NCBI GenBank assembly: GCA_018292915.2
Contig: JACVVK020000215.1
Coordinates: 136,001-200,000 of the forward strand
Direction of reading: 5' to 3'
DNA length: 64,000 nucleotides
DNA from: Batillaria attramentaria
Lineage: Eukaryota > Mollusca > Gastropoda > Batillariidae
Position 1 is the stretch's first letter. Each line of letters begins with the position of its first letter. The notes beneath the pieces are model-generated. The model was not told the DNA's origin, ran no database searches, and saw only the letters and a program-made list of their open reading frames with translations. Positions 12,449-55,110 of this stretch are shown piece after piece. The translations under genes were made by a program, and so were the position numbers.

Positions 12449-12502
12449 TAGTTAGTTAGTTATTTAGGGCCCAACGCCGCGCAAGCAACAAAGACCATTT
12501 CG
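12449..12502 (-). mobile_element. Hairpin-only micro-retrocopy (54 bp) with 18-bp target duplication
   Basis: The 54-bp insert consists of TAGTTAGTTAGTTATTTAGG, a short linker and the stem-loop GCCGCG...CGCGGC, whose distal arm overlaps the target. It is flanked by a perfect 18-bp direct repeat at 12431-12448 and 12503-12520 (starting CGGCCAGACC). The long duplication and repeat tail are hallmarks of target-primed reverse transcription, here of barely more than the LINE 3' hairpin. Confidence 0.9.
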
Positions 12503-12736
12503 CGGCCAGACCCTTGTTGTGTATACGCAAACTGTCCCAACAATCGATTTAAATGGGCCTGTGGTACGCGCTGCAAAAGATTACAAAATTTTAATGAATT
12601 TGTTTAATGGTCATTGGTGTGAGTTTTAAACATGCTTGAAGAAATAAACTGAATCACTACTCCATTATTCTGATAAAAATCCTTTGGAGAGTATTGTTGC
12701 AATGGAATATATTCAAATCCAGTTTCATCATTTCAG

Positions 12737-14494
12737 CCCCAACTTGACGGGTGTTACAGACGCCTCTCAGACATCCTTGAAATTGTGCTCCAAAAAAGGG
12801 CATTTTCAAGGGTTTTCGAGAAAGGAGAGATATGGCTTCGTCTAGCTTGTGATGGAGCCAAAATCACAAAGCACAAGGACTCTGTCAAGGCCACAGTCAA
12901 GTTGATTAGTGACCAAAGAGATGCTCTCACCCAAGAGTGTGTGAAATGCTCACCTGACAACGAGTTAACGCTGCTATTCTACATGGGTAAGTGTATTTAG
13001 CTCAGGGAACAATTAATTTTTCTGTTTAAGCTTGACAAGCTTGAGATGAGTATGTGCAGCACTGTGCCTTTGAATTCATTGAAACTGGAAGCTGTCTTTG
13101 TAGTGGTACAAGTTTTTAATATGTGGTGGAACTAGAAAATGCCCTTGTGTATGTTTTTAAATTCACATGGACACACACACACACACACACACTGACTTTT
13201 CATTAAAAAGTTTAAATTTTTAAATTGTGACTTCAGGGAAAGAAGACCGGGCTACCACGGGCATGTGGACGGAACACCCGTTTCCTGAGCTGAAAGCAAC
13301 AGCTGAGCATGGGATCGACATTCTTGGCCGACATCTCAGTGTGAAGTGGTAGGTATAATAATGCATATATACTTGCTGTTCTGTATAATTCTGTACATTC
13401 TAAAGGTCAGACAAGTATTGGTTTTTTGTTTGTTTGTTTGTTGTTGTTTTTTTGTTGTTGTTTTTTTTTTTTTTTTTGGGGGGGGGGGTGGGGGGGGGGG
13501 GGGTGAGAGTGATATTTCACTGTAGCTGACTATCCTTTGCTTAAACAGCAATACTTGTATTTAATTTTAAAATCCATTGCTCAGTGCCAAGTTGGCCGAT
13601 CACTAGATCTGCAGCCCGCCAGAGACAGTGCCTTGGCACCAGGAGGCAGGAAGAAAGAAAGGGATTTTCCAACCCCGATCTCGTTCCATGGATTCCCTTC
13701 AAACACATGGTGCCAGACGAGCTACACCTGAGGTGGGCAGAATTCATGCTTTAGACTTGACACCTAATCTAGCTAGCCACCAACAAACAGTGTTGCATAC
13801 ACCTGACTGATCTGTTTTAGCAGGGTTTTTTGGGTTTTGTTTTTTTTTCTTTTAGGGGTGGGGGGTGTCTGTCATGTGCGCTCTGTGTGGTGGTGTTATG
13901 TACTTGCGAATACTTGTTGTGTTTGTCTCTGTGTGAAAGTGCTTGTGTGAACTGTAAAGCACTCTGAGCTCCTCCAGGAGGGAGAGCACCGAGGGCACTA
14001 TCATTATTGTTGTTATATATAGTTGAGTTCTGTTATTGCTGACAGTTTGCAATAGTTGTGTGGAACCCAATGTTTTTTGTATACACTTCCCGGAAACTGT
14101 TTCTGCATGTGGTTATGACATTGTCACAAGCATTTGTTATTTGACACTAACAGGAAATTGATTTTCATATTTTCTTCTTTTTTCAGGATGCGAATCACCA
14201 GCAAGTTGCTGAATCAGGTAAACCTGTTAACTATGTGTTTGAAAGTGAAAAATGCAATTTTAGAAAGTGTATCCTGTGGGTGCTCTTTTTATTTTTAAAT
14301 ATATATATATATATAATAAAATATATATATATATATGTATCTACTAAATGTCAGGTCGTCAAGTGGTGTCTGGAGGTGAAGACCACCAAGGCCCTGGAAG
14401 CGGAAATGCGAAGAATTCATGTTGACTTCCGCTTGTACGAAGAGGTTGGGGATGACGATTGTGGGCAAGGTCCACAAATGGACGCACTCAGGAG
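12737..14494 (+). CDS. SAP-family transposon-like gene, copy 1 (exons 12737-12986, 13237-13348, 14187-14217, 14355-14494; partial)
   Basis: Four exons are bounded by good AG/GT sites and join in frame (phases 1, 2, 0). Exon a contains the family signature LACDGAKITKH; exon b contains GMWTEHPFPELKATAEHGID; exon d is charged and ends QMDALR. Homologous exons recur at 22.1, 25.4 and 52.1 kb, where the signature is LAADGANITKH. A fifth exon-like piece at 13585-13731 (read WPITRS...VPDELHLR) also occurs at 26.4 and 52.2 kb but does not join in phase with its neighbours. The 25.4-kb copy shows that the family includes a SAP DNA-binding motif. Function is unknown; a DNA-transposon-borne gene is the likeliest origin. 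Both ends are missing here. Confidence 0.6.
13445..13503. repeat. Poly(T)/poly(G) tract in intron
   Basis: T-rich (GTTTTT/GTTGTT) sequence runs into about 25 Gs. Low complexity. Confidence 0.9.
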
Positions 14495-15242
14495 GTATGC
14501 CTTACTGTTACAACACATGCCTAGTTGGTTACAGTTGAATTGATAGTGGCAGCTTGAAAACAAACTTAGAATCTTACAGATGATGATAATACTGAGGGCA
14601 TATCATGGCAAGCGGTCCGGTAGCGACGGTAAAACAGTTGTCAAACAAAAAAAACCTCGCAACTCAAGCAAAAAAACCAACAACAAAAAACAAAACAAAA
14701 AACCCACCTCGCAACTCACACCAAAGAGCAACATTCCAAACACGATATGTAAGCGAACCGGATGAAGGTCCAGCTCACGGTTTTTGCCAGATGCTGGCCC
14801 GTGTTTCTGCTACCCTGCAGGGATGCCGATCACGTACAGCTGAGGGTATAATACCTCTTGAGGTACAAAATCACGTAATCAAATCTTGAGCTGAGGGTAT
14901 GAACACGCACACCATCACTGCATTGAGGGTATGAGCACGTACGCCTTTTTTTTCTGTCAGTGCGTATCATCACGTTGAGGTTCTTAAGCTGTAGAGGTAT
15001 GCGCCAGAACATCGCTCGTGCGATATTCGACACTGGCCTATGGGTGTGTCTGTCGGAGACCTGCGTTGACTCCCCGCTGACTGCACTCCTCTCTCTCTCT
15101 CACTCTGCAACTGAGCATGCGCAACAGACACAGAGTATCGCTCTATCACTATGGGAAATCCCGGACCCTAAAAATAGCCTCTATGTAATCGCAGCACCTT
15201 CCGTCAACTTTTTCTCCGTAGCAGGCGCGATTTCTTGCCGAC
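14495..15242. other. No gene recognised
   Basis: An A/C-rich tract (CAAAAAACC) lies at 14640-14710. Two GCTGAGGGTAT-containing segments (about 14838 and 14890) form a short degenerate duplication. No exon identified. Confidence 0.4.
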
Positions 15243-15262
15243 GTGTTAAAGTCTGAAACACG

Positions 15263-15770
15263 ATGGCTTCAAAACAACAGAGTCTCTCTTCTTTTGGCTA
15301 TAGTGCGGTCAACAGATCATCGTCTGTCTCTGAAAAAGATGACCAAGACAAGCTTCCTTCTCAAGCATCCGAGGACACTGCCAAATCTCAGTCCTCCGAA
15401 GGCTCAGCGAACAAGACTTTTCAGGAGAAATGGTTGAAAGAGTTTCCCTGGCTCTACCGCGACACGCATGGATCTGTTCTGCAAAATTTGCAAGCCGGCA
15501 AATTGCAAAAACCCCTTCGCAGTTGGGGGATCGAAGAACAATCAGAGATCAGCCCTCCTAAGACACCAAGAGTCAAGAGACCACCGAGCAGCCGACAATG
15601 CAACCAACCAGAAGCCTATTACTCTCATCCTGCAGTCTCAAGCCACTACCCATACCGCTCTGCAGTGCATGCTCGGGACTGCAAAGTTCATCGTAGACGA
15701 AGAATTGCCTGACGCCAAATTCACTCCCCTTCTTACTCACATGGTAAAATGTTATAGGCCTACATCGAGT
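15263..15770 (+). pseudogene. hAT-type transposase N-terminus with TTF-like zinc finger, frameshifted
   Basis: The reading starts MASKQQSLSSFG, passes a Ser-rich acidic leader and reaches FQEKWLKEFPWLYRDTH. A one-base frameshift near 15465 then moves the frame to MDLFCKICKPANCKNPFAVG and RHQESRDH. A W-L-K-E-F-P-W-L motif followed by C-x2-C and H-x5-H is typical of the N-terminal finger of hAT transposases and the ZNF862-like genes derived from them. Frame closure after about 15770 in a GT repeat means the catalytic part is absent. The leader contains a PCNA-binding-like Q-x-x-L-x-x-F motif (QQSLSSF). Confidence 0.65.
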
Positions 15771-15799
15771 CAGTATTCCTTTCCCCTCCCTCTCTCAAC

Positions 15800-15848
15800 G
15801 TGTGTGTGTGTGTGTGTGACAGTGTGTGTGTGTGTGTGTGTGTGTGTC
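15800..15848. repeat. (GT)n microsatellite
   Basis: Two GT runs separated by GACAGT. Confidence 0.95.
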
Positions 15849-15984
15849 CCAATGAATTGTTCGAATTATTCAATCTCTATTATCTTATGAATATCAGTCA
15901 ATGTCTAAGGAGAATTCCTCAGTCTAAGACTTAAACAGGCTGAAATAGCAAACTTAAAATTTCAAGTAAGTAAAAACCACAAAA

Positions 15985-16256
15985 GATTAGGTCGGCAGCG
16001 AGGGAGACTATCACAAATGCTTGGTAAGATCTTGAAAAGTTTGTTCTCCGGGAGGGGAAGCCCGCAGGAGAAGGCGACATGTGGGCAGGAGACAGGTGAG
16101 AGTCGGGCTGGGAAGAGCTCGTCTCCCACGCCAGCCGCGCCGCCCACGCTGAAGTCTTCAGCAGCTGTGAACTGTGCAGACCTGACGTTCGAAGAACTCA
16201 CGGAGGAACTAGACCCGACTCCACGCAACTGGTTGGTAAGCTGCCAGAGGCTCCCG
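15985..16256 (-). mobile_element. LINE fragment (segment just downstream of RNase H)
   Basis: On the minus strand the end of this piece reads PENKLFKILPSICDSLPRC, the linker between the RNase H domain and the C-terminal zinc-knuckle region of the hp-A LINE. The same stretch with the same upstream sequence recurs at 24946-25206, and the linker also at 27.4 kb. It lacks the hairpin tail, so it is an internal fragment. The upstream part has no domain I recognise. Confidence 0.65.
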
Positions 16257-16325
16257 TCGGGGGATATGATGTGAGCTAGGCGTCCAGTTCACTGCACCGC
16301 ACTCCCTCCTAGCCCCAGACGGCCG

Positions 16326-16374
16326 TACTCGGCCGACCCTCCATATCCCCAAGTCGACCGTAGTCGGCCGAGTA
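16326..16374. repeat. Inverted repeat ACTCGGCCGA
   Basis: ACTCGGCCGA (about 16327-16336) and TCGGCCGAGT (about 16364-16373) could pair around a 27-nt loop. They lie about 230 bp upstream of the piggyBac reading frame and might be subterminal repeats of that element, but I found no TTAA-flanked end. Confidence 0.5.
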
Positions 16375-16565
16375 TGGTTGCTTGTGTTTAACATCTGTTT
16401 CCCATCACCCTAGGGTATAACCGTGGGAGTTTAGAGATCAGTACGTGTAGGCCTGGAATGTCTGCTGCAGATTATACTACACTTCTGGGCTGTATAAACG
16501 GTTGGGAGGGGTGGGAAATGAGCACATTTTGTTCTGCTGACCGTGAACCATTCCACGAATTCAAA

Positions 16566-17931
16566 ATGACGGAATTTGGAGCAGAGTTACCTGAGAAAGA
16601 AGAGTGGGATCAGGAGGATTTAGAACAGATAATGTTAGAAGTGGAGAAGATAGAGAAATGGACAGAGAGTCCGATATTGATGTTTCTGAAGAGTCAGATT
16701 CAGAGGATGACATACCACTGGCACAGATGGCTGACCCAGAGGATAACATACCACCTGTTCACATGCAGCAAACATGGCGGCCGGCTTGCCGGGAGGCTAC
16801 CTTGAGACCGTTTGAACAGGAAACTGGTCCCAATACTGACTTGTCTAACAAGGCAACACCTTTGGAGTTCCTTTTACTGTTTTTACCACATGCGCTTTTT
16901 GAGATGGCTGCAACAGAAACGAACAGATACGCGGCGCAGAAAGGGGAAGCCAGCGGCACACCTGATGGCGAGTGGCAACCTACGACACCTGCCGAAATGC
17001 GGGCATATGTAGAAGTTCTCATAATGATGGGCATCAAGCAGCTTCCCCGTCTTTGGTGTTACTGGTCGACAGATCCTCGATTTAACGACCCTTGGGTGTC
17101 ATCTGTTATGACAAAGAACCGGTTCTTCAAACTGAACCAGTATTTTCACCTGCGCGATACCAGCAAAACACCTGGACGTGACAGTCCCGACTACGACCCA
17201 CTCTTTAAGGTTCGACCACTCATTGATCTCGTCCGCCCAAGATACCAGACTACCTACCGTCCTGGTAGAGACCTGAGTGAGTTAGTTATTTAGGGCTTTA
17301 CGCCGCGCAGGCTGCAAAGACTATTTCGCGGCAAAGCAAGGTCCCTTTCTGCCAGGTCATTAAAAATAAAAGGGTATACAATAAAACAGGATGTAAATGT
17401 ATATTAAAAGTCTACTGGGTTTAAATAAGAGAGCTAAGCGTTGATGAGGCTATGATAGGTTTCAAAGGCAGGCTTTTCTTCAAGCAGTATATGCCAGCCA
17501 AGCCAACCAAGCGGGGTGTCAAGGTGTGGGAGTTGTGTGACGCGGTGACAGGTTACTGCCTGAACTTTGACATCTATACCGGCCGCCACAGTCGTGAAAA
17601 CACAAACATCACACTTGGCGAAGAAGTTGTACAGAAGTTGATGCGTCCATTTTGCAGTCAAAATCGGCATGTTTATTTTGACCGATTTTTCGCCAGTGTC
17701 AACCAGTATCAACATCTGTACGACAATGGAACGTATTCGTGTATGACAGTTATGTCAAACAGAAAGGGACTGCCACCAGAAGTGAAACAGGCTCAGCTGA
17801 AGAATCAGAAAGAGCTGCTTCAAATGCAGAAAAGCAGCATGATGGACTGTTTACAAAGACAAGCGCCAAATTTTCATACTATCCAGCAACTGCAGCCCAG
17901 GTGTGTCAGGTGACAAGGGGACACCGACTGT
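16566..17931 (+). pseudogene. piggyBac transposase, interrupted by LINE 3' end
   Basis: An acidic leader (DVSEESDSEDD) is followed by the PGBD-type body: ATPLEFLLLFLPHALFEMAA, MRAYVEVLIMMGIKQLPRLW, DPWVSSVMTKNRFFKLNQYF and YRPGRDLS. After a retroelement insertion (17276-17431) it resumes DEAMIGFKGRLFFKQYMPAK, with the first catalytic Asp in DEAMI, and continues to HVYFDRFFASVNQY, which holds the second. Family members have a third catalytic Asp about 100 residues later. Here the frame degrades after LPPEVKQAQLKN into frame-shifted remnants near 17880-17970, so the C-terminal catalytic Asp and Cys-rich tail are not visible. DDE transposase of the cut-and-paste TTAA type; inactive as it stands. 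Confidence 0.9.
17276..17431 (-). mobile_element. hp-A LINE 3' end inside the piggyBac frame
   Basis: GTTAGTTATTTAGGGC, the terminal hairpin and the downstream word TCCCTTTCTGCCAG identify the LINE 3' end in minus orientation. It splits the conserved YRPGRDLS|VDEAM motif of piggyBac. The expected duplication is eroded (CCTGAGTG versus GCTAAGCG), so the insertion is old. Confidence 0.85.
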
Positions 17932-18037
17932 CATCCAACAATACACACACACAGAGTTTTGGGAATGTGAGTTTGCTTAGTAAATGTAGCTACAGTAGAA
18001 GGTTTTCAGGACTTGTTATGTATGGGTGGTAGGGGGT

Positions 18038-18038
18038 A

Positions 18039-18080
<42 letters not shown>
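18038..18080. repeat. (GT)n microsatellite
   Basis: About 19 GT units in what looks like the intron before the next gene's first visible exon (acceptor TTATTCGCAG at 18120-18129). Confidence 0.95.
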
Positions 18081-18081
<1 letters not shown>

Positions 18082-18129
18082 CCGCAGGCTCTTGGTCTTC
18101 TTTTTCTGCGAGTTTTCTCTTATTCGCAG

Positions 18130-23437: not shown

Positions 23438-23499
23438 GTGAGCATATAAACAATCCGGTTCTCCTTAACGGGCAGGAACAAACCCCCAGACTTTGAATT

Positions 23500-23941: not shown

Positions 23942-23993
23942 CCAGCAGGGGGTGAGGAGTGGTGAGCAATCCCGCCCTCGCAACCCGCAGGAA

Positions 23994-24365
23994 GAGTGAG
24001 TGAGTGAGTTTTTAGGGCTTATAGCCGCGCAAGCCACCAAGACTAATTCGCGGCTGAGTGTGCCTGCACTACATGAAAAAAACAAAAATGTAACGTTGGA
24101 CAAAGGATGCCAACTGGTCTACGGGGCAATATAAACCTAGGACATGCAGGAGACGCTGCACCTTCATGCTAATTTCTCGAACTCCCGGTTACAAAAAAGC
24201 GTAGAAAACAAATGACAATTACAACTAGGTAAAACAAAGATAAATACTAAGCGCATATACAGCAAATATTGCAACTTATCATCTCCTAGGCGCAATAAAC
24301 CAGTTCGCAGCATATGCCCAACATCACTTATTCCTAACCACTGGTAGTGCAGACGTGAGTGAGAG
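23994..24365 (-). mobile_element. hp-B retroelement copy (372 bp) with 14-bp target duplication
   Basis: The copy runs from the GAGTGAGTGAGTGAG tail through the hairpin and body to CGTGAGTGAGAG. The perfect 14-bp repeat GCAACCCGCAGGAA (23980-23993 and 24366-24379) flanks it. The next hp-A LINE begins one base after the right repeat. Confidence 0.93.
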
Positions 24366-24379
24366 GCAACCCGCAGGAA

Positions 24380-25206
24380 AGTTAGTTAGTTAGTTAGTTA
24401 GGGCTTAACGCCGCGCAAGCAACAAAGACTATTTCGCGACTAAACCGAGTCCCTTCTTGCCAGGTTTTTTAAAACATAAAAAATGCTCAACTTAAAACAA
24501 GATGTAAATATATACTAAAACTTTGTGAGACTTAAAGGAGATCTATACGAGAGCAATTTCTTCCAGAGTGAGTGAGTGAGTTTTTAGGGCTTAAACTTGT
24601 TAAAGCCGCGCAAGCCTTTCTTCCAGATCTGTAATAAAAATTGAATGGACGGAGGTAAATGAAAGACCATGATTTATATCTTATAAAACAAGTTTGCTTC
24701 CTTCGGGAAATTAAAGATGTTGTCAGATGATCCCTGAACAACACCTTCAATGAATCAGCTGAATAATATTTTTCACGGATCTCGGTGAGATCCACCCACG
24801 AGAGTAAGAAATGGCTTACAGCAAAAGGCTCATCACACGGGACACACCAGGGGGGATCTTCCCCTTTCAAGAAATGTGAATACGTGATGTGGGTGTGCCC
24901 GATGTGAAGGCGACTAAGAGTGGTCTCCTCGCGCCGATTAAGTCGGCAGCGAGGGAGACTATCACAAATGCTTGGTAAGATCTTGAAAAGTTTGTTCTCC
25001 GGGAGGGGAAGCCCGCAGTAGAAGGCGACATGTGGGAAGGAGACAGGTGAGAGTCGGGCTGGGAAGAGCTCGTCTCCCACGCCAGCCGCGCCGCCCACGC
25101 TGAAGTCATCAGCAGCTGTGAACTGTGCAGACCTGACGTTCGAAGAACTCACGGAGGAACTAGAACGGACTCCACGCAACTAGTTGGTAAGCTGCCAGAG
25201 GCTCCC
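24380..25206 (-). mobile_element. hp-A LINE, 5'-truncated copy with C-terminal coding region
   Basis: The tail (GTTA)4, hairpin and 3' UTR run from 24380. On the minus strand upstream lies the C-terminal zinc-knuckle region: LHIGHTHITYSHFLKGEDPP, then C-x2-C as CVPCDEP followed by FAVSHFLLSWVDLTE. The expected final Cys (as in the 49.4-kb copy, HILISC) is Trp here. Further upstream lies ILPSICDSLPRC. This architecture is typical of I-superfamily-like LINEs that carry RNase H. Stop codons and a nested insert make it dead. Confidence 0.85.
24568..24616 (-). mobile_element. Hairpin-end micro-retrocopy (49 bp) nested in a LINE
   Basis: The insert starts GTGAGTGAGTGAGTTTTTAG, has an internal TTAAACTTGTTAAAG duplication and stops after one arm of the hairpin (GCCGCGCAAGCC). 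The 11-bp repeat TTTCTTCCAGA (24557-24567 and 24617-24627) flanks it. Net gain 60 bp. Confidence 0.9.
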
Positions 25207-26718: not shown

Positions 26719-27593
26719 GAGCGAGTGAGTGAGTTAGCTATTTAGGGCTTAACGCCGCGCAGGTTATTTAGTTAGTTATTTAGGGCTTAACGCCGCGCAC
26801 GCAACAAAGACTATTTCGCGGCTAAACCGGGTCCCGTTCTGCCAGGTTAACGCCGCGCAAGCAACAAAGGCTAATTCGCAGCTAATGAAAGTCCCTTTCG
26901 GCCAGGTCCTATAAAACATAAAAATTCCCACGTTAAAACCAGTTGTAATTGTATATTAAAAATCTATTGGGTTTAAAGGAAAAATATCTTTCAAGACTTA
27001 AAAAAGTGGAGTGGACACATGAGGTCAAGGTGAGTCTAAATATATCAGAGGATTATATTTCGTAAAAAAGGTTGACCTCTTTCAGGAAATTGAAGATGTT
27101 GTCGGGTGGAGGCATCCCTGAACAACACCTTCAATGAATCAACAGAATAGTGTTTTCCGCGGATCTCGGCGAGATCCATGCACGAGATTTAAAAATGACT
27201 AACATTGAATAGCTCATCACAGAGGACATACTGGGGGGGGGGGGGATCTTCCCCTTTCGGCAGATGGGAATGCGTGATGTGGGTGTGCCCAATGTGGAGC
27301 CTGCTAAGAACGGTCTACTCGCGCCGATTAGGTCGGCAGCGAGGAAGACTATCACAAATGCTGGGTAAAACTATGTACAGTTTGTTCTCCGGGAGGGCAG
27401 CCCATTGGGTCTGCCATTCCTTTTGAACAACTAAAGGTTTAAGATCACTGCAAGCCATGTGCACATCCTCCACAGGGCCATCGCGGTCAGCGTTCGGGGC
27501 CCCGTTAGAGCACCTGGTTCCTCGGGTGCCAACATGACCTGGGATACAGATAAAAACAGTGTCCTTGTTGTCGGCAATCAAGGATGCATGCAT
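26719..27593 (-). mobile_element. hp-A LINE composite with RNase H C-terminus, inserted in the SAP motif
   Basis: The 10-bp repeat GCTGAAAGAT (26709-26718 and 27594-27603) flanks 875 bp. The tail end is a pile of three hairpin units (near 26727, 26768 and 26850), suggesting nested or template-jumped ends. On the minus strand 27593-27315 reads DNKDTVFICIPGHVGTRG, the C-terminal RNase H motif (I-P-G-H-V-G-x-R-G), then QKEWQTQWAALPENKLY and the zinc-knuckle linker. RNase H next to the reverse transcriptase places it near I/Nimb/Ingi-type LINEs; the exact clade is not resolved. Confidence 0.85.
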
Positions 27594-27740
27594 GCTGAAA
27601 GATCAAATCCAGGCGCAACCTGCCCACGAAAGGGCTAAAGGCTGCCCTGCTCCAACGCCTAAAGGACCACATGGAGCCAGCTGAAAAGGTGGGACACTCT
27701 GTTTTAATCATATATTATTGCTTAGTCTGACAAGGTAGGA

Positions 27741-27798
27741 GTCAGTTAGTTATTTAGGGCTTAACGCCGCGCAAGCGACAAGGGCTAATTCGCGGCTA
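27741..27798 (-). mobile_element. Hairpin-only micro-retrocopy (58 bp)
   Basis: Tail GTCAGTTAGTTATTTAGG plus the complete stem-loop ending CGCGGCTA. The 14-bp repeat CTGACAAGGTAGGA (27727-27740 and 27799-27812) flanks it. Net gain 72 bp. The duplicated target contains AAG|GT. Confidence 0.93.
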
Positions 27799-28351
27799 CT
27801 GACAAGGTAGGACAGTGAAGAGGACTATGTAATCAGAGAATAGTTAGCTCCTTGTGTGAGTGATAAGGCAAAGTAGACAATTTGATATGTTTTCCTGGCG
27901 TAAGGTTTTGCAGTCCAATCTAGATATGTTTTCTCTTCTTCAGGTTAGCAGGAAAACGAAACTCATGACATTCGAAATGTCAGATTATGACGATGAAATG
28001 ATGTACAGAGAACCAGATGAAGACCATGTTGATGTCGATGAGCTCCAGGAGATCTGGAACAGGTTTGATGGCCTCATGGATGCTTTCAAGGCAGCACCAG
28101 GAACAGAGCATTACATGAGGTGATCAGTATTCCAAAAAAACTGTGGGTGTCTAGAAATCCACACAACTGAGCATATGATACTGATCAGTTTGTTAAACTG
28201 ACTGATTTTCACCGTGGCTACCTAAATTCACTGGCAGCTTGTGGGCGAGTACCGACAGCCTCGTCGCCCTGCGTGTCGACCCCGCTCCAACGACAACCAA
28301 AACCGGCTGCGACTAGATGGAAAAGACCATCTACCTGTACCTGGTGAAGGG

Positions 28352-32689: not shown

Positions 32690-32999
32690 TAACATTTTAG
32701 CAGTAGAAGGAGATGAAAGGCACATTCTGGTCATTGAACGCTTTTTGACAACAAGGGCCTTCTTCAATTATCCATGTAGCTCAGTAGACTTCAATATTGT
32801 TAGAGCCTCTCGATTGTCAGGGTACTTTGACAGGGCTTACCTGGATGAGGTTGAGTTAGTTAGTTATTTAGGGCTTAAAGCCGCGCAAGCAACAAAGACT
32901 ATTTCGCGGCTACTGGATGAGGTTGAACAGAAATGTGTAATGCTGCCATATAAATACAGGGAGTATGTTATGATCCCTATTGATTTCAAGCAAAGTTAG
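32690..32999 (+). CDS. Unassigned transposon-type exon read through a micro-copy
   Basis: The reading ERHILVIERFLTTRAFFNYP, FNIVRASRLSGYFDRAYLDE, then the 24-codon insertion (see 32855), then CVMLPYKYREYVMIPIDFKQ is open to the stop at 32997-32999. The motif LPYKYREY also appears at 25.3 kb as LPYKYKDY, so it belongs to the same transposon complement as the SAP family. I do not recognise a function. Confidence 0.45.
32855..32912 (-). mobile_element. Hairpin-only micro-retrocopy (58 bp) inside an open frame
   Basis: GTTAGTTAGTTATTTAGGGC plus the whole stem-loop to CGCGGCTA, flanked by the perfect 14-bp repeat CTGGATGAGGTTGA (32841-32854 and 32913-32926). Net gain 72 bp, 24 codons, with no stop: the host frame gains ELVSYLGLKAAQATKTISRL. 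The duplicated target contains GAG|GT. Confidence 0.95.
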
Positions 33000-35760: not shown

Positions 35761-35999
35761 GAGGTTTTCTTCAAGAGAGGCGCTGCACAGTTCGGTTGAG
35801 AGTTTGGACATGGCAGGCACGTTCAAGTTGCTTGGAACAAAGTGCTTAAGTGCTTCACGGTGGAAACCCCTGAGGTGAGCACACCACAGACTAACCATGC
35901 CCTCTATGTAGACATTTTTTAAAAGAAATATTTGCATGTGGACAAGACTCAAGTTCAGAAGAGAACTTGGAGTAAAACACTCGTGCACAGTCTGTGTCT

Positions 36000-36034
36000 A
36001 GTTATTTAGGGCTTTACGCCGCGCAAGCTACACA
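36000..36034 (-). mobile_element. Hairpin-end micro-retrocopy, 35 bp
   Basis: Only AGTTATTTAGGGCTTTACGC plus GCGCAAGCTACACA is inserted, that is, the tail and one hairpin arm. The 13-bp repeat ACAGTCTGTGTCT (35987-35999 and 36035-36047) proves the event. Net gain 48 bp, and the frame remains open into the YqaJ-like exon. Confidence 0.9.
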
Positions 36035-36312
36035 ACAGTCTGTGTCTGCTGTGTGGCGTGATGCAAGGCGCATACGCATTACAGCCAGAGCTGCACAGAG
36101 GGTGCCGGTCCGATCCACCACAAATGCAGACAAGTTTCTGCATGAGCAGATGTACACCACGTTCAAAGGCAACACAGCACCTAAGTATGGAAAACTATGT
36201 GAGCCAAAAGCCATTCAGGCATTGCAGGAGACGGGCATTAACACATCAGCAAGGGGAGTAATTGTTTCTGTAAAGGAGCCGTGGCTGTCAGCAAGCCCTG
36301 GTGGTATTACAG

Positions 36313-36357
36313 TTAGTTAGGGCTTTATTCCGCGCAAGCACCGGAGACTATTTAGAA
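36313..36357 (-). mobile_element. Hairpin-end micro-retrocopy (45 bp) in the YqaJ frame
   Basis: Insert TTAGTTAGGGCTTTATTCCG to GACTATTTAGAA, flanked by GGTATTACAG (36303-36312 and 36358-36367). Net gain 55 bp, so it shifts the frame and ends the upstream reading at ITVS-stop. Confidence 0.92.
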
Positions 36358-36474
36358 GGTATTACAGACAATGGCACGCTTGTGGAAATAAAGTGCCCAA
36401 TTATGAGTGCAAATGCCAATGACTTCAAGAACTTGCCTCTGGTGCCAGGATATACGTCATTCTCTGTGACGGGT

Positions 36475-39137: not shown

Positions 39138-39385
39138 GTGAGTTATTTAGGGCTTAACGCCGCGCAAGCAACAAAGACTATTTCGCAGCTAAACCAAGTC
39201 CCGTTCTGCCAGGTTCTTTAAAACATAAAAGTCCGGCTAAAAACATTATGTAAATATATATTAAGAGTTTGTGTAGCAAAAAGAGGAAAGAGGATAACTT
39301 GATTTATAAATCATAGACCTCTTAAATATTCAGCCTTTCACTTGCCTCCTATGTTAAATTTTTAAATCTTGAAGGAACCGCGGCG
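39138..39385 (-). mobile_element. hp-A LINE 3' end (left arm of an inverted pair)
   Basis: GTGAGTTATTTAGGGCTTAA, the hairpin (CGCAGC distal arm) and the 3' UTR words CCCGTTCTGCCAGGTTC and TATGTAAATATATATT. Confidence 0.85.
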
Positions 39386-39566
39386 TTAAGCCCTAAATAA
39401 CTAACTTAAAAGAAATTTCTCATTTAAATCTGATAGATTCTTTTTATATTTATTTACATCTTGTTTTAACGCGGAAATTTTAGGAGGACCTGGCAGGAAG
39501 GGACTTTCATTAGCCGCGAATTAGCCTTTGTTACTTCCGCGGCGTTAACCCCTAACTTTAGGCCCT
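39376..39566 (+). mobile_element. hp-A LINE 3' ends in the opposite orientation
   Basis: CCGCGGCGTTAAGCCCTAAATAACTAAC appears at 39378-39405 in sense orientation. A second piece ends CCGCGGCGTTAACCCCTAAC near 39537-39556 after TTTACATCTTGTTTTAACGC and AGCCGCGAATTAGCCTTTG. These are the only copies whose LINE sense is on the plus strand, and they form an inverted pair with the preceding copy. Confidence 0.8.
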
Positions 39567-45235: not shown

Positions 45236-45696
45236 CAGGGCCGGATCCAGGGGGGGGGGGGGGTTCCACAGGTTCTGGAACCCCCCCCCCCCCTGCAAAT
45301 GACATGTACCTGTAGATGGACGTTTTTTTTTTTTGTTTTTTTTTTAATCCATGTCAGCCGGGACCCAAATTTATTCATGGTCAAATCCGATGAGAAAAGT
45401 GGTACCCCCCCCCCCCCCCCCCCGCCCTTCCGCCCTCGGAGCGCACCCATCCGATGCCGGCAAACAGTGTCTTGATCCCTGTCGCCGGGTAAACCCAGTA
45501 CCACAGTGCTACCGCGGCAGCAAGAGGCCACACGTACAGTCACAGCACAGACTGACTGCGCGAGCGGGCGATAAGATGCCCGTTGCTAAGTGATACTGGC
45601 TAAAAATAGCAGACCCGGGAGATGCGAAGCAAGATCTGTTCCAGCGAAGATTCCTGCACATGACCTCGGTTTTCACTGCTTGATTTATCTGCGAAG

Positions 45697-47903: not shown

Positions 47904-48366
47904 ATTGGAGTCAGGACTGTGATAGGCATTGTTTGACAATAAGTATTCAAGCTGTTGTTAAGGAGAATTGAGAATTTTGACCTTTTGGATTACTTTTGTT
48001 TGGAGTCAGACTCATTCACTCAGACTGTCTGAGTGAATGATAGGCCCTCTTGCAATGTCAGCTACACCCGAAAGGTCAGTGGAAAGCATGTTTTTTCTCT
48101 TTGTGTAAAAAAGCTTCTCTTGCATGCATCCTCTTAAAAAATGTGAGAGATCTATACTACCGCTAACTCTGTTTTCTTGTTTGGATTGTCATGAAGCTCA
48201 TAAGAAAAGATTACAATCTTGTCTACAAACCTTGATAAACAGCTTAGACATAGGCTTTCAAGCTGTCCTGATGCCCCCTGCACCCCCATTGGGGGAGACC
48301 CCCAAACCCCCCCCAAAAATTTTGGAACCCCCCCCCTTCTATACCCCTTGATCCGGCCCTGCATTG

Positions 48367-49074
48367 CGTATATATATATATTCACCATCATCGCACAGTA
48401 TACCCCATAGCTAGGCAGTTGTTTGATTTGGAGTGGTATGGGATGGTTGTGCTTATCCATCTGCAATCTTATGATTTTGGGTATGGGCTTACATATGTGC
48501 AGGCTCTTTCATTTGCATAATCCCCTCGCTTCTAGTTCTCATTCTTTTGTGTAGTGTACGGTGTGCTGACTGCCTAGTCCGGGGTCGCGTGACAATAAAC
48601 CGTTCTAGTGTATAATCTGTTCTTATTTCTATTGTGTGTTGCTTTTGGTTGCTGTTCCATATATATATACATGTATATATATCACTCTTAGTCTTACTAC
48701 TGCGTGTTTGCTTTCTACGTGTATACATGTACTGTCCACTCAGTTCTCTTTTCAAAAACTTTTGAGCCCATTGTTGCACAAGATTCTGACTTGCCTTGCC
48801 TCTGCGCATGATAAACGAATACATAGTGTACATTGTTATCAGTGGAAGGGTGGGAAGGTCACTGTTTCTGATTGTTTAAATATTATTAAATTTAATTTCA
48901 GTGAGTAATTCTGAAGAGCAAAATGTGTACATACAGTATAGTATGTATGAGCATTATATATGACTTGCAAGTTGATGCGACTATTTCTCCCAGTGGACTT
49001 TTTTTTGGGGGGGGGGGGGGGGGGGGGGTAATTATTTGATATGATTATTATAGTCTTGATATATTGTATTACTT
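48367..49074. other. No gene recognised
   Basis: (TA)n at 48368-48381 and 48659-48682 and a T/G homopolymer at 48999-49029. Confidence 0.5.
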
Positions 49075-49088
49075 TCATGTATGCGGGT

Positions 49089-49826
49089 GAGTGAGTGAGT
49101 ATTTTAGGGCTTAACGCCGCGTCAGCGACAAAGACTAATTCACGGCAGCCACACGTTTGAAGGCCTCTTCGTTAAAAGGTAAAAATCTGGATTAAAACAA
49201 CTAGTAAATATAGGCTAAAAGTTTATAGGTTAAATGAGATTCCACCAGTCTTGGTTACCACCAGTTCAAAAACGTCAAGTAAGTTAGTTTTTTTGGGCCT
49301 TACGTTATGATTGTCACTTGGGCAAGCAACAGAGTCAAAACGTCAAACATGGGTCGTGTACATAATCAGTAAAAAACACAATGTTCAAATTTTACGAAAC
49401 AAATTGACTTCTCGAAGGAAGCCAAAAATCTTGTCTGGGGGGACATTTCGGAACAAGAGCTCCATTGATTCGGCAGTGAAATATTTCTGTCGAGCCTCCG
49501 TGAGGTCTGCACAAGAAATCAAAATATGTTTAATAGTATCTGGCTCATTACACCCAAAACAGAAAGGGCTCTCTTCACCTTTCAGCAAGTACGAGTGGGT
49601 ATAATATGTGTGCCCAATATGAAGGCGGGCCAGGACCACCTCTTCCCGACGGTTAGTCCTACACCGGGGAATGATTTCCTGACATTTGGGAACTATACTG
49701 TGGAGTTTATTGTTACCAAGAGTATCCCACAGGGCTTGCCATTGATCTACTATGTACTTATAAATTTATAAAGGGTTTAAAATCAGAAAAAACACTACTC
49801 TTGCTAGCCACAGGACCAGCCCGGGC
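49089..49826 (-). mobile_element. hp-A LINE copy (738 bp) with 14-bp target duplication and C-terminal coding region
   Basis: TCATGTATGCGGGT at 49075-49088 and 49827-49840 delimits the insertion exactly. The tail is GAGTGAGTGAGT followed by the hairpin in diverged form (GCCGCG/CACGGC). On the minus strand 49639-49385 encodes LHIGHTYYTHSYLLKGEESP, then CFGCNEPDTIKHILISC and ADLTEARQKYFTAES: the H-x-x-H/C-x2-C-x-n-H-x4-C knuckle after RNase H. This copy links the GTGA-type tail to the coding LINE. Confidence 0.93.
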
Positions 49827-50054
49827 TCATGTATGCGGGTATATTTTCAGCAAAGTTTAATGAAATTTGAATTCAGTGATAATGATGTATGTTTCTCTGT
49901 TGTAAGCTTGTGACAAACTTCGCATGATCTATTGTGTGGGCCAGTCTCACCTACATGTATTATTTCTAGTTACCAGTTTCGTTTAGTGTTATAAGCCTTT
50001 TTGGCACTGGCTGAAATTGGGTTGTATTAATTTATATCAACAAAACAATTAACA

Positions 50055-50640
50055 GGTTCTGCTTCAAAATCAACCTCTCAGCCTGAGCCGCCAAGTCCAA
50101 TTGTGCCTGTTTAACCAACGGCAACTGTCGCCAGACCAACAGCTTTGAGATTACTCCAACTGTTTTATATATCTTATTCTCAGAGTGCAGTTGTTGTAAG
50201 AGTTGCAACTCTTTGAAGTTGTTTAATGTTACTTGTCAGTACTCTGCTACTCCTGTCATAGATTGATTCCCTTTCAATCCTGTGATGCAGAAACCCCTCC
50301 TGGCAGCCTGACACTGACAGGCCCCCATGGTGATCTCCATCAAGAGACAAGACCTAGTACCATAACAGGTGTGTGTTTTTCTATTTTATTTTTTATGATA
50401 CAATGCATAGTTTTCTATTATCTGAATAACTAAGTGAAAATATGAGAGAGAGATTGAAGATCCCATCCCATGATGGTCAGTATGTATGTAAGTAGACATG
50501 TACATGTTTGTATACATCATTCAGTTTGCCTTCTTCTTCTCTATGCAGTTACAACCCAAGGCAGTCAGACAGCATATGCTCTCAGTGTGACAAGACCTAG
50601 TAAACACACAGGTATGTTGATTTCAGCGGGTGGTGAGGAG
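50055..50640 (+). other. Series of short exon-like segments, unassigned
   Basis: Segments near 50055-50115, 50290-50369 and 50549-50611 are bounded by AG/GT-like sites. The last two are similar to each other: both contain ACAAGACCTAGTA and end near ACAG|GTGTGT or ACAG|GTATGT. They resemble repeated linker exons of the kind seen in the hAT gene, but no domain is recognised. Confidence 0.35.
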
Positions 50641-50657
50641 AGGGATGATGCTGAGAG

Positions 50658-50768
50658 TTAGTTATTTAGGGCTTAACGCCGCGCAAGCAACAAAGACTAT
50701 TTCGCGGCTAAAACAAGTCCCGTTCTGTCAGGTTCTTTAAAACATAAAGTCTGGCTTAAAGATTTATA
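50658..50768 (-). mobile_element. hp-A LINE 3' end (111 bp)
   Basis: TTAGTTATTTAGGGCTTAAC, full hairpin, CCCGTTCTGTCAGGTTC and AAAACATAAAGTCTGGC. Flanked by ATGCTGAGAG (50648-50657 and 50769-50778). Confidence 0.92.
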
Positions 50769-50899
50769 ATGCTGAGAGGGCGAGGATGTCAACAGAATAT
50801 GAGGATGGGACAGACTATTCATTTTTGGGAAAGGGAAGGGAAGAGGAAAGACAGGGGGAAAACAGTGAGGGTGCTGTCTCACTCAGCGCTTTGCACAAA

Positions 50900-51100
50900 A
50901 GTTTAGAAGTAAAATTTAAAACATACTATCAGCTACTCTGCTCTCCATGAGCTGCACATGCTGGGGGTGGTGGCTGCCATTCCACTCAACATGTACATAA
51001 TAGCCGAGTTGCAGCGCTTGGCCACCTGTCTTGACATCTTTGGCCCACCCATGGCATGTGTAACTATTCAGGGATTTTTTTGGTAAACAACAGTTTTTAA
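50900..51100 (+). other. Fragment related to the 3' part of the YqaJ-type gene
   Basis: 50918-51040 resembles 36591-36720 in DNA: TACTATCAGCTACTCTG versus TACTACATTCAAGTGCA; GTGGCTGCCATTCCACTCAA versus GTGGCTGCCATTCCACCCAG; GCGCTTGGCCACC versus GACGCTTGGCCGCC. Frames are disrupted. It suggests a second, more decayed copy of that exonuclease-type gene. Confidence 0.5.
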
Positions 51101-51401
51101 GTTTTAATGATAGGGTGCTACAGAAATAATTTGTTGACTGTTGTGCAGTACTGACATATGCGGCTGGAGTGCAAGACGGAGCAGCTTTGATCCTAATTTG
51201 GACGAATCGACCCAACATTCCATTGCTGAGGAGGAAGAAGTCTCCAGGGGAACAAACGATGGAAGGTTTGTGAAACTTGCTCAACTTGCTCTCTCTTGAT
51301 GGAGTGCCCCCTGCATGACTTGTTTCCTTATCGTTTTGAGTGTGTATAATGACATTGGTGTTCATCTGACCAACATTCTTTTTAATGCTTTACTGTTTCA
51401 G

Positions 51402-51825
51402 GGTTAACGTGGAAGAATTCTAACAGCGTCACGTGGACGGATGGCAAGGACTATGTGTGTCAGGTATGTTTTATGCGTACCCTTTTTGAAGACAAATCTA
51501 TGTGTTTTCAGGTAGATTTGACATAGATTAAAGGTCTAAGGTCTTAGTTGGGGGGGGGGGGGGGGGGGGGTTAGGAAACTATCCCGTTCTTGTCACCAGT
51601 CAATACTTATTAACATTATTTAATGTCCATGGTCTGGGGTTTCAAAATTGAATATTATGTCCATTTCTTCTCACCAGGTTAAGCAGATTGACGAGAAAAC
51701 GGACCTCGTCCACGTGCACTTCATGGCGCAGGTTGGAAGAGGGAACCTGTACACATGGCCTACAGAAGCAGACGAATCATGGGAGCCTCTGGGTCTATTC
51801 AAAGGGACCCACCCTTCCAAATGAA
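51402..51825 (+). CDS. Tudor-like C-terminal exons (51402-51462, 51679-51825)
   Basis: Exon GLTWKNSNSVTWTDGKDYVC ends at GTATGT; the next, after TCACCAG, reads VKQIDEKTDLVHVHFMAQVG, RGNLYTWPTEADESWEPLGL and FKGTHPSK-stop. A D-x-V-x-V-x-F-M ... Y-x-W-P barrel-like pattern after an aromatic W-x-D is typical of the small Tudor/chromo-barrel tails found on several transposon-borne proteins. The exons join in phase. The upstream catalytic part is not identified; it may have been the YqaJ relative at 50.9 kb. Confidence 0.5.
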
Positions 51826-52059
51826 ACTGGATGAGGCAAAAGCACAGCAGAGAAAACAATATTTTTCTATCAATACGTAGATCTACGTACGATACCTGAA
51901 TGTAAAGCTGGAAGTACAATAATGCGTACTGATGCTGCTGTAGTTCATTTGTGTTGTATGGTGATCAGTTAACAGTGCTGACAAATGATATTGCTAGAAA
52001 GAATGTAGTGTACAAACCAGACTGTATGTGTTGGATCCTGTGTTCAGACTAGAAAGCCA

Positions 52060-52385
52060 TGGCGCTGATCAGAGGTGTCAACCCGCCCGCTCATTATTTC
52101 TGTCTGTGGTGTGAATGCAGCGAGGATCAGATCAGTGACTTCTCTGGTATGTATATTTTTTTTTTCCTTAATTTTTTTTTTCTATACTGTATCAGTCTGC
52201 ACATACTCATACAGTGTATCTGATTTTCAAATCCATTCCTCAGTCCCAAGGTGGCCAATCACCAGAAGCAGTGTTTGGGAGCGCGACGACAGGAAGAGAG
52301 GAGGGGTTTTGCAAAACCTGATCTCCTACCATTTATCCCCTTCACCCATATGGTGCCAGATGAACTACACCTGAGGTGGGAAGCA
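52060..52385 (+). pseudogene. SAP-family gene, copy 4 (two exons)
   Basis: ALIRGVNPPAHYFCLWCECS before a GTATGT donor matches SLLKGINPANTRFFYLWREC of copy 3. After TCCTCAG the second exon reads PRWPITRSSV; a frameshift near 52285 is needed to reach RRQEERRGF and MVPDELHL as in copies 1 and 3. A LINE 3' end begins at about 52391. Confidence 0.6.
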
Positions 52386-52390
52386 ATGAT

Positions 52391-53127
52391 GTTAGTTATT
52401 TCGGGCTTAAGAGACTAGATTTAGATTTCATACAACAAGCTAGCATCCCGGAACAACATCTTCCATGATGAAGCACAGTAATGCTTGTCACGGATCTCCG
52501 TGAGATCCGAGTTTAGTCAGTTTATTTTGGGGCTTAACGCAGCACAAGCAACAAAGACTATTTCGCGGCTAAACCCAAGTCCTCCGGTTCTTGCCAGAGA
52601 CCCGTGAGATCCGAACTAAAAAACTAAAAATGTTCAAATGGTAAAATGGCCTCATGGCACAGAATACACCATGTGGGGGGGGGGGGGGGGGGGAGGGGGG
52701 TCCTTCAACAGATGCGAATGTGTAACATAAGTGTGCTCTATATGTCGGCAGCTTGGGACTACCTTCCTGGCACCGATTAGACCAAACAGCGAGGGATATC
52801 ATAACATATGGCTTGGTAAAACACGTTTTACTTTGTTCTCCAGGAGCGCATCCCATCGGGGCCTGCCACTCCTTTTGAACGAAACCAGACACTTCCAAAT
52901 TGCAGGAGTTCTGAGCAGCTGCACAACAAAAAGGAGCCCTACGAGTAGTACCCAGTGTTGGAGGTTCATTGACGGCAATGTCAGGAAGCTGGTAAAGGGA
53001 GAGTAAGTTTTTAGGGCTTAACGCCGCATAAGCCACGAAGACTACAAAGTCAGGTAGACTGGAACGAGGGGTGTACAGTGGGCACAAGTGTGTCCATGTC
53101 ATCAAGTTTCAGTCTGAAGACATCCAG
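52391..53127 (-). mobile_element. hp-A LINE copy with nested inserts
   Basis: The tail GTTAGTTATTTCGGGCTTAA lacks most of the hairpin. The minus strand between about 53010 and 52690 contains FVQKEWQAP, the LINE segment after RNase H, in broken frames. A hairpin-type end also occurs at 53002-53045 (GTAAGTTTTTAGGGCTTAAC). G run at 52674-52694. Confidence 0.65.
52512..52601 (-). mobile_element. hp-A LINE 3' end (90 bp) nested in a LINE
   Basis: GTTTAGTCAGTTTATTTTGG, hairpin, CTAAACCCAAGTCCTCCGGT and CTTGCCAGAGAC. Flanked by the 13-bp repeat CCGTGAGATCCGA (52499-52511 and 52602-52614). Confidence 0.9.
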
Positions 53128-53130
53128 CTT

Positions 53131-53188
53131 AGTTAGGGCTTTACGCCGCGCAAGCAACAAAGACTATTTTGCGGCTCAGCTCATTTTC
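53131..53188 (-). mobile_element. Hairpin-only element end, probable micro-copy
   Basis: TAGTTAGGGCTTTACGCCGC and the stem-loop ending TTTTGCGGCTCAGCTC. Only a short CAGCT word repeats at both sides, so the duplication is weak. Confidence 0.6.
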
Positions 53189-53544
53189 ACACCAACACAT
53201 TGCTAAAGCATTCAATAACGCTGTTTTTGTTTGTTTGCTTTGATTTTTGACCTGTAATGCCTTTATTTTGCTTTTTTGTGTGTGTGATCTACTAACCGAT
53301 TTCAACACAAAAAGCACGTCCATTTGGTCAGACTTTTGAGAGTTGCAAGTGTGGAATCCCTTAGAGAACCCCCACATAATTGCACATTACTAGAACTGGA
53401 AGAGATTTTATTTTGGAACCGAGAGCAAGTTCTGCTAAAACTGTCCAATCAGAGTGTCTGTTAGGGCAATGTTTAGCGTAAACAAAAAACTAATTCCAAC
53501 AGCCTTCGACCAATCATCGAGCCAGCTTTTAAAGTCCCTTAGTT

Positions 53545-54835
53545 ATGGCTAATCTGGCTGAAAGGCCGCCTGCCACTGGCTATTTTTTCAAAAAGCAGAA
53601 CTACCAGGCCACTTCCCGTTTCATAAAAGTCATTCTACATGGCCTATCCAGCATGGAGAAACGTGTGGTTGTGCTGTTGAATTCCTCGAAATCGGGAAAT
53701 ATTTTCGACAAAGAGAGTAAAGGGATTTGGGAGCTCATCAAAGACTACTTTGCATCAAGCAGCACATACAAAGAAGAAAATTATTTTCCACATCAGAACG
53801 ATGAGGAGGAAGACGTGTTCGGACGAAGACGACGCTAATACCGGGGCATTCGAAGTTTCTTCAGCCGAGACTGAGAATGAGATAGAACAACCTGTCATCT
53901 GAGTACATGTACTTGGAAGTGCAGACTCTCAGTCTGTCAATGCTGACCGCAATGGCCAAGGACTCCGAGACCTTTAAGCGACTGAACGGTTTTCCTGCAA
54001 GTGCCAGGTCGAATGCGCTACAGAACCAGATCGGGGAGCGTGGTGCAGTTCAGTCCTAAAGAAATGTTGGCATACAATCTTTCTTTCAAGGATATGGACC
54101 GAAGTATGCAAAATGTAATTCTGACTCCGAGTCCTCATCTTTCTTCAACCCCCCCCCCCGAAAAGCAAAACTCACCAGGCAACTAAGGCAGAGCAAGTCT
54201 TCACAGAATCTGGTGCCCTGTACCCAAATGAGGAGAGCTTAAAAGGGCCATGCGACAAGTCAGGGAAAAGATGAGGGCAAAGAGAAAACAGTTTGCCTTT
54301 CTCATGAAGGGCCTTTTGAAGACATCTGACAGAAAGACAAAGGCAGCCTTGAAAGATCTTAACATTAGATTCTCACCACCTGAAAAAAAAAACCAAAAAA
54401 AAAAACACTCAATCTGCTGGGGGAAACCTTTAGGAAGGTTGGAGATCATTATCCAAGAAAAGAGACAAAGAAACCCTTAAAACACAAACGACACTTGACT
54501 AAGGCGCTCAGAGTCAGAGAGGAAGGCTGCAGACAAGTAAGCCTGAACACAAAATACTGCGCAAAATCCACACCCTATGCAGCTAGGGGCAACATTCACC
54601 AGTCAGTCATCAGTGACTTCTTCCTCCAGAACAGTGTGGATAATCCCTGCAAGTCTACACGTCACATGGAAAGAAGCAACTGCTGGAACCGGTCGAACGA
54701 CTTCAAACAACTCTTCTTGTCCAGAAGAGTGTGAAGGTCTCATTGAGGATGATGCACACACTGAAACCAAAAACTGTGGCATCTGTAATAAAACTGAAGT
54801 TCAGACAGTGCATTGTGCATGAACCCAAAGACTAA
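53545..54835 (+). other. Transposon-type coding remnants, unassigned
   Basis: 53545-53838 is open (MANLAERPPATGYFFKKQNY, then an acidic HQNDEEEDVFGRRRR). 54250-54480 reads MRQVREKMRAKRKQFAFLMK and GLLKTSDRKTKAALKDLNIR. 54700-54820 reads CPEECEGLIEDDAH and NCGICNKTE. All lie in front of the family at 55.4 kb and could be its N-terminal parts with several frameshifts. I recognise no domain. Confidence 0.35.
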
Positions 54836-55050
54836 AAGTCAACAGGCTCAATTTATTGCTGCCCAAGAATGAGCAAATGAGTGTCAGGGGGCTGTTGGCA
54901 GAAAGTATGTGTACAACTGATAAAAGAGTATGGGAACACTGAATGTATTGAGCGAAAGTGTGGCGAGTGTGGAGTGGACGCTGTGAGGAAGAGTTTTGAA
55001 GAGAAGTTTAGGTCCCTCCCTACATCAAGAGGTGGGATGGGCCAGGTGGG

Positions 55051-55110
55051 TTGGTTGGTTAGTTATTTAGGGCTTAACGCCGCACAAGCAACAAAGGCTA
55101 ATTCGCTGGA
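55051..55110 (-). mobile_element. Hairpin-only micro-retrocopy (60 bp)
   Basis: TTGGTTGGTTAGTTATTTAG, the stem-loop (GCCGCA...) and AATTCGCTGGA, flanked by CCAGGTGGG (55042-55050 and 55111-55119). Net gain 69 bp, 23 codons, no stop in the plus-strand frame 54881-55186. The duplicated target contains CAG|GTGGG. Confidence 0.88.

Follow-up and report, generated by a model that had tools for sequence, protein, structure and literature searches.

In a 715-Mb assembly, nearly all sampled short copies of one LINE break off directly after one of the two arms of a hairpin close to the 3' end of the element. This pile-up of ends suggests that the reverse transcriptase may let go of its template at two steps of hairpin copying, a reading to which we give a probability of roughly 45%. 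Positions in the element are counted in cDNA orientation, with TATTTAGGGCTTAAC at 1-15, the first arm (GCCGCG) at 16-21, the loop at 22-40 and the second arm (CGCGGC) at 41-46. Reverse transcriptase copies RNA from 3' to 5', so the 3' arm comes first.

Truncated copies in the window

The window, i.e. the whole stretch of 64,000 nucleotides analysed here, contains seven inserts that had been read as independent LINE-type integrations. All seven were confirmed as such, each with its own target duplication of 9-18 bp, and they are extreme 5' truncations (stubs) of one LINE, all on the (-) strand. The stub at 12449-12502 (54 bp) lies between 18-bp duplications (12431-12448 and 12503-12520), and its end is given as a range, 42-46, because CGGC is common to element and target. 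At 24568-24616 (49 bp; 11-bp duplications 24557-24567 and 24617-24627), nine extra bases precede the hairpin, yet the end falls at 26-27. Two stubs of 58 bp, at 27741-27798 (14-bp duplications 27727-27740 and 27799-27812) and 32855-32912 (14-bp duplications 32841-32854 and 32913-32926), both end at 48 with CGCGGCTA, and the second carries the exact 31-base hairpin at 32880-32910. The stub at 36000-36034 (35 bp; 13-bp duplications 35987-35999 and 36035-36047) ends at about 30-32, and the one at 36313-36357 (45 bp; 10-bp duplications 36303-36312 and 36358-36367) shows homology up to 40 followed by four unmatched bases; the duplications of these two were read by eye. The last, at 55051-55110 (60 bp), ends at 43-47 between 9-bp duplications (55042-55050 and 55111-55119), which become 13 bp if one mismatch is allowed.

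Further copies of the LINE surround these stubs. A diverged relative at 49279-49336 ((-) strand, 58 bp, 10-bp duplications) is a probable additional stub, with a profile E-value of only 0.013, and a short copy at 39379-39406 ((+) strand), with a worn duplication, ends just past the first arm inside an older copy of the same LINE. Three consecutive tail units at 26723-26882 ((-) strand) fit template jumping: the first breaks off at ~23-25, the second does so after CTGCCAGG, and the third begins within the 3' region. Longer copies, all on the (-) strand, were found at 52511-52601 (91 bp, 13-bp duplications), 50658-50768 (111 bp, 10-bp duplications), 23994-24365 (372 bp, 14-bp duplications; a GAGT-tailed lineage, whose family lies outside the genome samples) and 49089-49826 (738 bp with the end of ORF2, 14-bp duplications). 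GCCGCG is more frequent in the window than chance predicts (53 occurrences; 6.9 expected), and a search of the window with a profile of the terminal 53 bases gave 27 matches at E < 1e-3.

Ends of copies across the genome

A 23-base anchor has 1,924 exact matches in the assembly, and the 31-base hairpin of one lineage has 1,027 genome-wide. The main sample consisted of 100 copies anchored on the tail and first arm, taken as the first of the 1,924 matches (contigs C1-C7) and not by random draw. Sample and peak window (44-49) were fixed before the end positions were read, although L029, L036 and L041 had by then been examined (as L001, L003 and L007). The acceptance rule for ends was set after the sample had been read; it passes 46 of the 100 copies and fails 54, many of which extend beyond the 250 fetched bases or have worn duplications. 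It drops, for example, L040, L058, L098 and L123, all accepted on reading, and an earlier version had placed the end of L086 at 87 when it lies at 24.

By this rule, 43 of the 100 copies are stubs, with inserts of 24-79 bases, and nearly all of them end just beyond one hairpin arm or the other. The 46 accepted ends comprise 18 at 17-28, one at 29-42, 22 at 43-51, two at 52-58, none at 59-120 and three farther out. When low-complexity duplications are left aside, 41 ends remain, distributed over the same bins as 16, 1, 20, 2, 0 and 2. Reading of the copies placed 22 with duplications and two by homology only at 17-28, three at 29-42, 25 at 43-51 and two at 51-56; L094 and L105 are probable but lie within simple repeats, and the remaining copies are longer or ambiguous. 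The duplications of the 43 stubs measure 9-24 bp (median 14), the upper value being the limit of the search.

Scattered truncation points are usual in LINE insertion, without being a defining rule; in our sample they were not found, the ends being clustered at 17-28 and 43-51. Ordinary scattered truncation with a chance cluster in the window would suit the seven window stubs taken alone, whose ends are spread over several positions from 26 to 48, and there are longer truncated copies as well. A smooth fit to the 42 ends lying within 21-120, however, predicts 3.4 ends at 44-49, where 18 were found, and 14.6 at 29-42, where there was one. In a second sample, ten of 25 new full-hairpin copies ended at 46-51. 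Given this excess and the agreement of the second sample, the outer peak is real, and scattered truncation is hardly credible. A second, inner cluster is also present, and it is broad (18-28); the sequence-only reading did not include it.

That reading had foreseen a sharp peak at the base of the hairpin, and both samples bear it out. The two patterns it had named as contrary, smooth lengths and short copies without duplications, were looked for and neither was found. Of the seven window stubs, those at 24.6 and 36.0 kb end within the hairpin. A length of about 58 bp is not a unit, because the tail varies while the end keeps its place with respect to the hairpin; with their variable tails, the stubs form a shorter class (24-45 bp) and a longer one (52-79 bp). 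The proposal of simple stalling at the hairpin did not hold up: none of 77 copies ends at the hairpin entry (15-16), which rules out stalling ahead of the stem, and the outer peak lies beyond both copied arms.

The copies share a 3' end with its tail and vary at the 5' end, which fits target-primed reverse transcription. A DNA transposon is ruled out, as one end is fixed, the other variable, and the duplications differ in length. A local duplication artefact is likewise ruled out by the separate duplication at each window stub and by samples from contigs C1-C7. Microhomology at the junctions is slightly raised (mean 1.13; 0.73 in shuffles, p about 0.01); chance microhomology joining as the sole cause is ruled out, since it is absent from several of the ends at 27 and 48. 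Strands of neighbouring copies showed a weak tendency to agree (49 of 80 neighbours within 250 kb, permutation p 0.028, among 141 listed places).

Template release and other routes to the same ends

The stubs were made by several lineages in unequal shares, each with its own next letters (CGCGGCTA vs CGCGGCAA). This argues against a single small-RNA gene, and one small-RNA source is thus ruled out. The idea of one mobile RNA of about 60 nt also fails on the two length classes and on the inner stubs, which would need RNAs without a complete hairpin. The arms GCCGCG/CGCGGC are common to lineages whose next letters differ, which points to conservation of the 3' stem-loop. Lineages with the same arms differ in their share of stubs, a difference noticed after the fact and obtained with L064 and L092 (51-56) counted as stubs and L094 and L105 as long; it fits a property of the enzyme. 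A point against release at the hairpin is that one lineage also favours an end near 247-255, well away from it.

When the just-copied strand is folded, hairpins are complete at 18, 26 and 46, and the commonest ends come 1-2 bases later. We propose that the enzyme would nick the target, prime on the tetranucleotide tail and grip the RNA by its 3' hairpin. Copying of the 3' arm would melt the anchoring stem, with release at 17-28; surviving enzymes would go on through the loop and the 5' arm, and a second release might follow with the hairpin consumed, mostly at 45-50. Enzymes past both steps would become processive and yield copies of hundreds of bases, and the usual pathway would join the short cDNAs to the target. 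Such a two-step release would correspond to the abortive initiation that precedes promoter escape. Binding of ORF2 to the hairpin is putative, by precedent of other LINEs: ZfL2-2 ORF2 binds its own 3' stem-loop, deletion of which abolishes retrotransposition (PMC4176376), and in human L1, ORF2p keeps an RNA stem-loop next to the template channel (PMC10830416). More tentatively, the recognition hairpin may double as a checkpoint of reverse transcription, at which the enzyme aborts when the hairpin is half or fully consumed, so that a large share of integrations would be dead-end stubs.

The template RNA still to be copied completes its hairpin at 18, 26 and 46 too. Trimmed or discrete templates, in which the LINE RNA is cut or decays from its 5' end, decay halts at a protein-bound hairpin and the enzyme runs off the end of the short RNA left over, would accordingly give ends at these positions, and the sharp ends with few extra bases and the second-tail chimeras (the one at 26.7 kb and L131 of the second sample) resemble end-of-template jumps. 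We nevertheless regard this explanation as rather doubtful: inner stubs are nearly as numerous as outer ones (18 vs 22), yet the RNAs behind them would not contain the whole hairpin, on which related LINEs depend (PMC4176376), and lineages with the same arms differ.

Trimming may instead act on the cDNA, if a longer first strand were freed by RNase H, cut back to the hairpin by a 3' exonuclease and then joined. The LINE encodes RNase H, and in the folding analysis cDNA prefixes have 1-2 unpaired 3' bases at 19-20, 27-28 and 47-48, near the observed ends. The inner hairpins are weak in the model, however (about -2 to -2.6 kcal/mol), the lineage differences would be left unexplained, and we consider this route improbable. 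Hairpins of the remaining RNA and of the cDNA are completed at almost identical positions, so the trimming models account for the positions of the ends about as well as template release does. Terminator-like eviction, in which a nascent-cDNA hairpin directly behind the enzyme pulls it off the template, is very unlikely. It agrees with ends that come after completed hairpins, and RNase H would release the strand that trails the enzyme, but the ends lie only about 1-3 bases beyond the stem, where the enzyme should still grip the hybrid; at RNA polymerase terminators, about 7-8 bases remain.

The predicted structures weigh against template release: they do not surpass those of shuffled sequence (z -0.3 to -1.8), and in the model the GAGT-tailed lineage folds differently. 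Folds of the whole 3' region vary between copies and give no clear account of the sites near 75 and 248.

The parent LINE, its significance and its relatives

What truncates most LINE copies is an old question. The candidates, poor processivity, host attack and RNA decay, are difficult to tell apart, since truncation points as a rule show no apparent pattern. In the present LINE, the ends keep register with a 31-base structure almost to the base pair and in more than one lineage, so that each model makes a distinct, testable prediction. If the checkpoint reading is true, the genome would preserve an abortive-initiation phase of target-primed reverse transcription in the form of hundreds to thousands of inserts 24-79 bp long. 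The findings also point to a mutational input that would easily escape annotation: short insertions, some dozens of bases long and with duplications, each of which brings in a tetranucleotide repeat seed together with a portion of a GC-rich hairpin. In the part of the open-licence PMC literature covered, no earlier report of hairpin-registered LINE ends was recognised.

A related full-length copy has an uninterrupted ORF2 with APE endonuclease, reverse transcriptase and RNase H in one frame (Pfam; ORF2 of L149, the long copy sampled as L034); a Pfam scan of two C-terminal fragments gave nothing above the cut-off. Going by the domain order, the parent is a probable member of the I superfamily. 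Other RNase H-bearing LINEs likewise have all three domains, the endonuclease being of APE type, in a single ORF2. TAA repeats form the end of the I element (PMC3747384), unlike the present LINE with its GTTA- or GAGT-type tail and GC hairpin.

The stringent-type LINEs UnaL2, ZfL2-1 and ZfL2-2 of the L2 clade resemble the present one in having a 3' hairpin followed by a repeat tail, but the LINE here, unlike them, encodes RNase H. Their stem-loop is bound by ORF2 and required, which for our element is putative, by analogy; the passages of PMC4176376 from which these features are taken do not describe hairpin-registered end clusters. In lepidopteran microsatellites, RTE 3' ends lie, like the stubs, beside a simple repeat and with target duplications; those pieces keep reverse transcriptase coding sequence (PMC2887409), whereas the stubs consist of the tail and half or the whole of the hairpin, with registered ends. 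SINEs with a 3' end taken from a LINE are, like the stubs, small and carry the LINE's 3' hairpin and tail. The stubs are not SINEs, as they have no separate 5' head of their own (e.g. a pol III promoter) and are made of the LINE's tail and hairpin only.

Short copies and their parent LINE

A profile built from the last 53 bases of a LINE detected 27 copies of its tail in the 64-kb window (E < 1e-3), which lies in an assembly of 863 contigs (715 Mb). In cDNA orientation, the copies start with a tetranucleotide tail, followed by TATTTAGGGCTTAAC (positions 1-15), GCCGCG (16-21), a 19-base loop (22-40), CGCGGC (41-46) and lineage-specific letters. The sequence-only reading had described at least seven independent hairpin-only insertions (12449-12502, 24568-24616, 27741-27798, 32855-32912, 36000-36034, 36313-36357 and 55051-55110), and all seven were found in place, each inside its own pair of 9-18-bp duplications. 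Longer copies of 91, 111, 372 and 738 bp in the window also carry such duplications, indicating that the stubs, i.e. copies reduced to the tail and half or all of the hairpin, form the lower size range of a series of truncated LINE copies. The final codons of ORF2 are present in the copy of 738 bp. A 634-bp copy at 39.9 kb is less sure, with a G run inside its left border.

Six stretches beside long copies were fetched and checked for open frames. One of these, L149 (the same long copy as L034 of the genomic sample), contains an uninterrupted ORF2; in the 1,227 residues searched, Pfam matched an APE-type endonuclease, a reverse transcriptase and RNase H. Another long open frame was present in L152, and the remaining four stretches contained shorter frames only. 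The ORF2 protein search scored 7,991 candidates, 1,822 of them at E <= 0.001, and the closest of the matches listed had 71-72% identity.

Copies are denser in the window than in 20 evenly placed stretches of contigs C1 and C2 (27 per 64 kb vs. 11 per ~180 readable kb). In the region 23980-24390, the 372-bp copy is followed, immediately past its right duplication, by a LINE copy from a different lineage, as though one target site had been used twice. Tail units placed end to end, or switching mid-way, were observed at 26723-26882 and in the genomic copy L131, which fits template jumps at the end positions described below. Two open frames at 16604-17913, resembling parts of one transposase, are separated by a LINE-tail copy starting near 17274, and a tRNA-like match lies at 654-725 on the minus strand (32.2 bits vs. 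a cut-off of 29).

Distribution of end positions

The sample and the peak window of 44-49 were fixed before fetching, with the window copies and a few genomic copies already known. The anchor, the 23-mer GTTATTTAGGGCTTAACGCCGCG, ends at position 21, so that the second arm was not selected for. It has 1,924 exact matches in the assembly, which are nearly balanced between strands (993 and 931), whereas 25 of the 27 window copies have their element sense on the minus strand by profile search; elsewhere, neighbouring copies share a strand slightly above chance. The 100 listed matches (C1-C7) were fetched as 99 stretches and read, and an end was called where a duplication lay next to the tail, provided that homology, judged independently, stopped within 8 bases.

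This rule accepted 46 of the 100 copies, with ends at 17-28 (n = 18, the inner cluster), 29-42 (n = 1), 43-51 (n = 22, the outer peak), 52-58 (n = 2), 59-120 (n = 0) and beyond (n = 3). A peak at the hairpin base, for which the sequence-only reading had suggested plotting insertion lengths, was recovered: 18 ends fell at 44-49, where a truncated geometric distribution, fitted to the 42 ends between 21 and 120, predicted 3.4, and none of 20,000 draws reached 18. The gap at 29-42 held one end against 14.6 expected. The 43 stubs span 24-79 bp, with 18 at 24-45 bp, 22 at 52-79 bp and three others. An earlier end-calling rule gave 32 ends, including 14 at 21-28 (mostly 27), 15 at 43-49 (eight exactly at 48) and one each at 33 and 35, with L086 miscalled. 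One stretch (L077, C3:3101039-3101486) contains two stubs in a single GA repeat, 55 bp apart and both ending at ~22-26, and further stubs likewise sit in GA repeats.

For a second sample, 28 copies matching the 31-base hairpin exactly were read in the order of the match list; three of them overlapped the first sample. Among the 25 new copies, 10 end at 46-51 and 12 run on; L005 and L008 possibly end at 46-51, their duplications being unclear, and L131 is a chimera switching at about 55. The entry side of the hairpin was probed using a 25-mer ending at position 15 (1,567 matches), an anchor to which ends short of 15 are invisible. Of 100 listed matches, 77 lay in the region spanned by the first list; 64 of these had been fetched before and 13 were newly fetched. 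The added copies end at 17-20 (n = 4; L158 and L163 less clean), 24 (n = 1), 33 (n = 1) and 43-48 (n = 3); the other four comprise three longer copies and an unclear one. Ends at 15-16 are absent from the 77 copies, indicating that the enzyme does not halt directly before the upper stem.

Lineages and the proposed role of the hairpin

The share of stubs differs among lineages with the same arms (15/32, 7/10, 2/14 and 0/8 copies; Fisher p 0.0009 comparing the first and second pair of lineages, a difference spotted after the fact), which argues against the hairpin being the sole determinant. In one lineage, a further preferred end lies at ~247-255, within the terminal part of ORF2 (L032, L073, L074 and L097), and a copy of another lineage (L102) ends near 262. 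The preferred end at ~247-255 and the breadth of the inner cluster count against release at the hairpin as set out below. A loop variant in L084, with CTGA and TCAG added on opposite sides, would lengthen the stem.

When cDNA prefixes and the corresponding remaining RNA were folded, hairpins were completed at 18, 26 and 46, and the most frequent ends fall 1-2 bases past these positions. Two folding results also weigh against release at the hairpin: compared with shuffles, the folding energy of the 3' end was not improved (z -0.3 to -1.8), and in the model the GAGT-tailed lineage adopted a different fold. We hypothesize that the hairpin anchors the template RNA and that its copying would dismantle this anchor, with a first frequent release after the 3' arm has been copied and a second after the whole hairpin. 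Alternatively, the RNA template or the cDNA may be trimmed back to a hairpin, which predicts similar end positions. Pre-trimmed RNA is disfavoured by the inner cluster if recruitment depends on the hairpin.

LINE truncation, target duplications and 3'-hairpin recognition are already known. A two-peaked end distribution in register with the hairpin, with stubs making up 43 of 100 sampled copies, was not found in the open-licence PMC literature, as judged from search listings. According to PMC4176376, the 3' stem-loop of the zebrafish LINE ZfL2-2 is bound by the element's ORF2 protein, and loop exchange blocks binding. Human L1 ORF2p is described in PMC10830416 as holding an RNA stem-loop from which 15 single-stranded bases lead to the active site. 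Here, tail and upper stem are likewise 15 bases apart, although the tail boundary is definitional and part of the intervening stretch is predicted to be paired in some copies.
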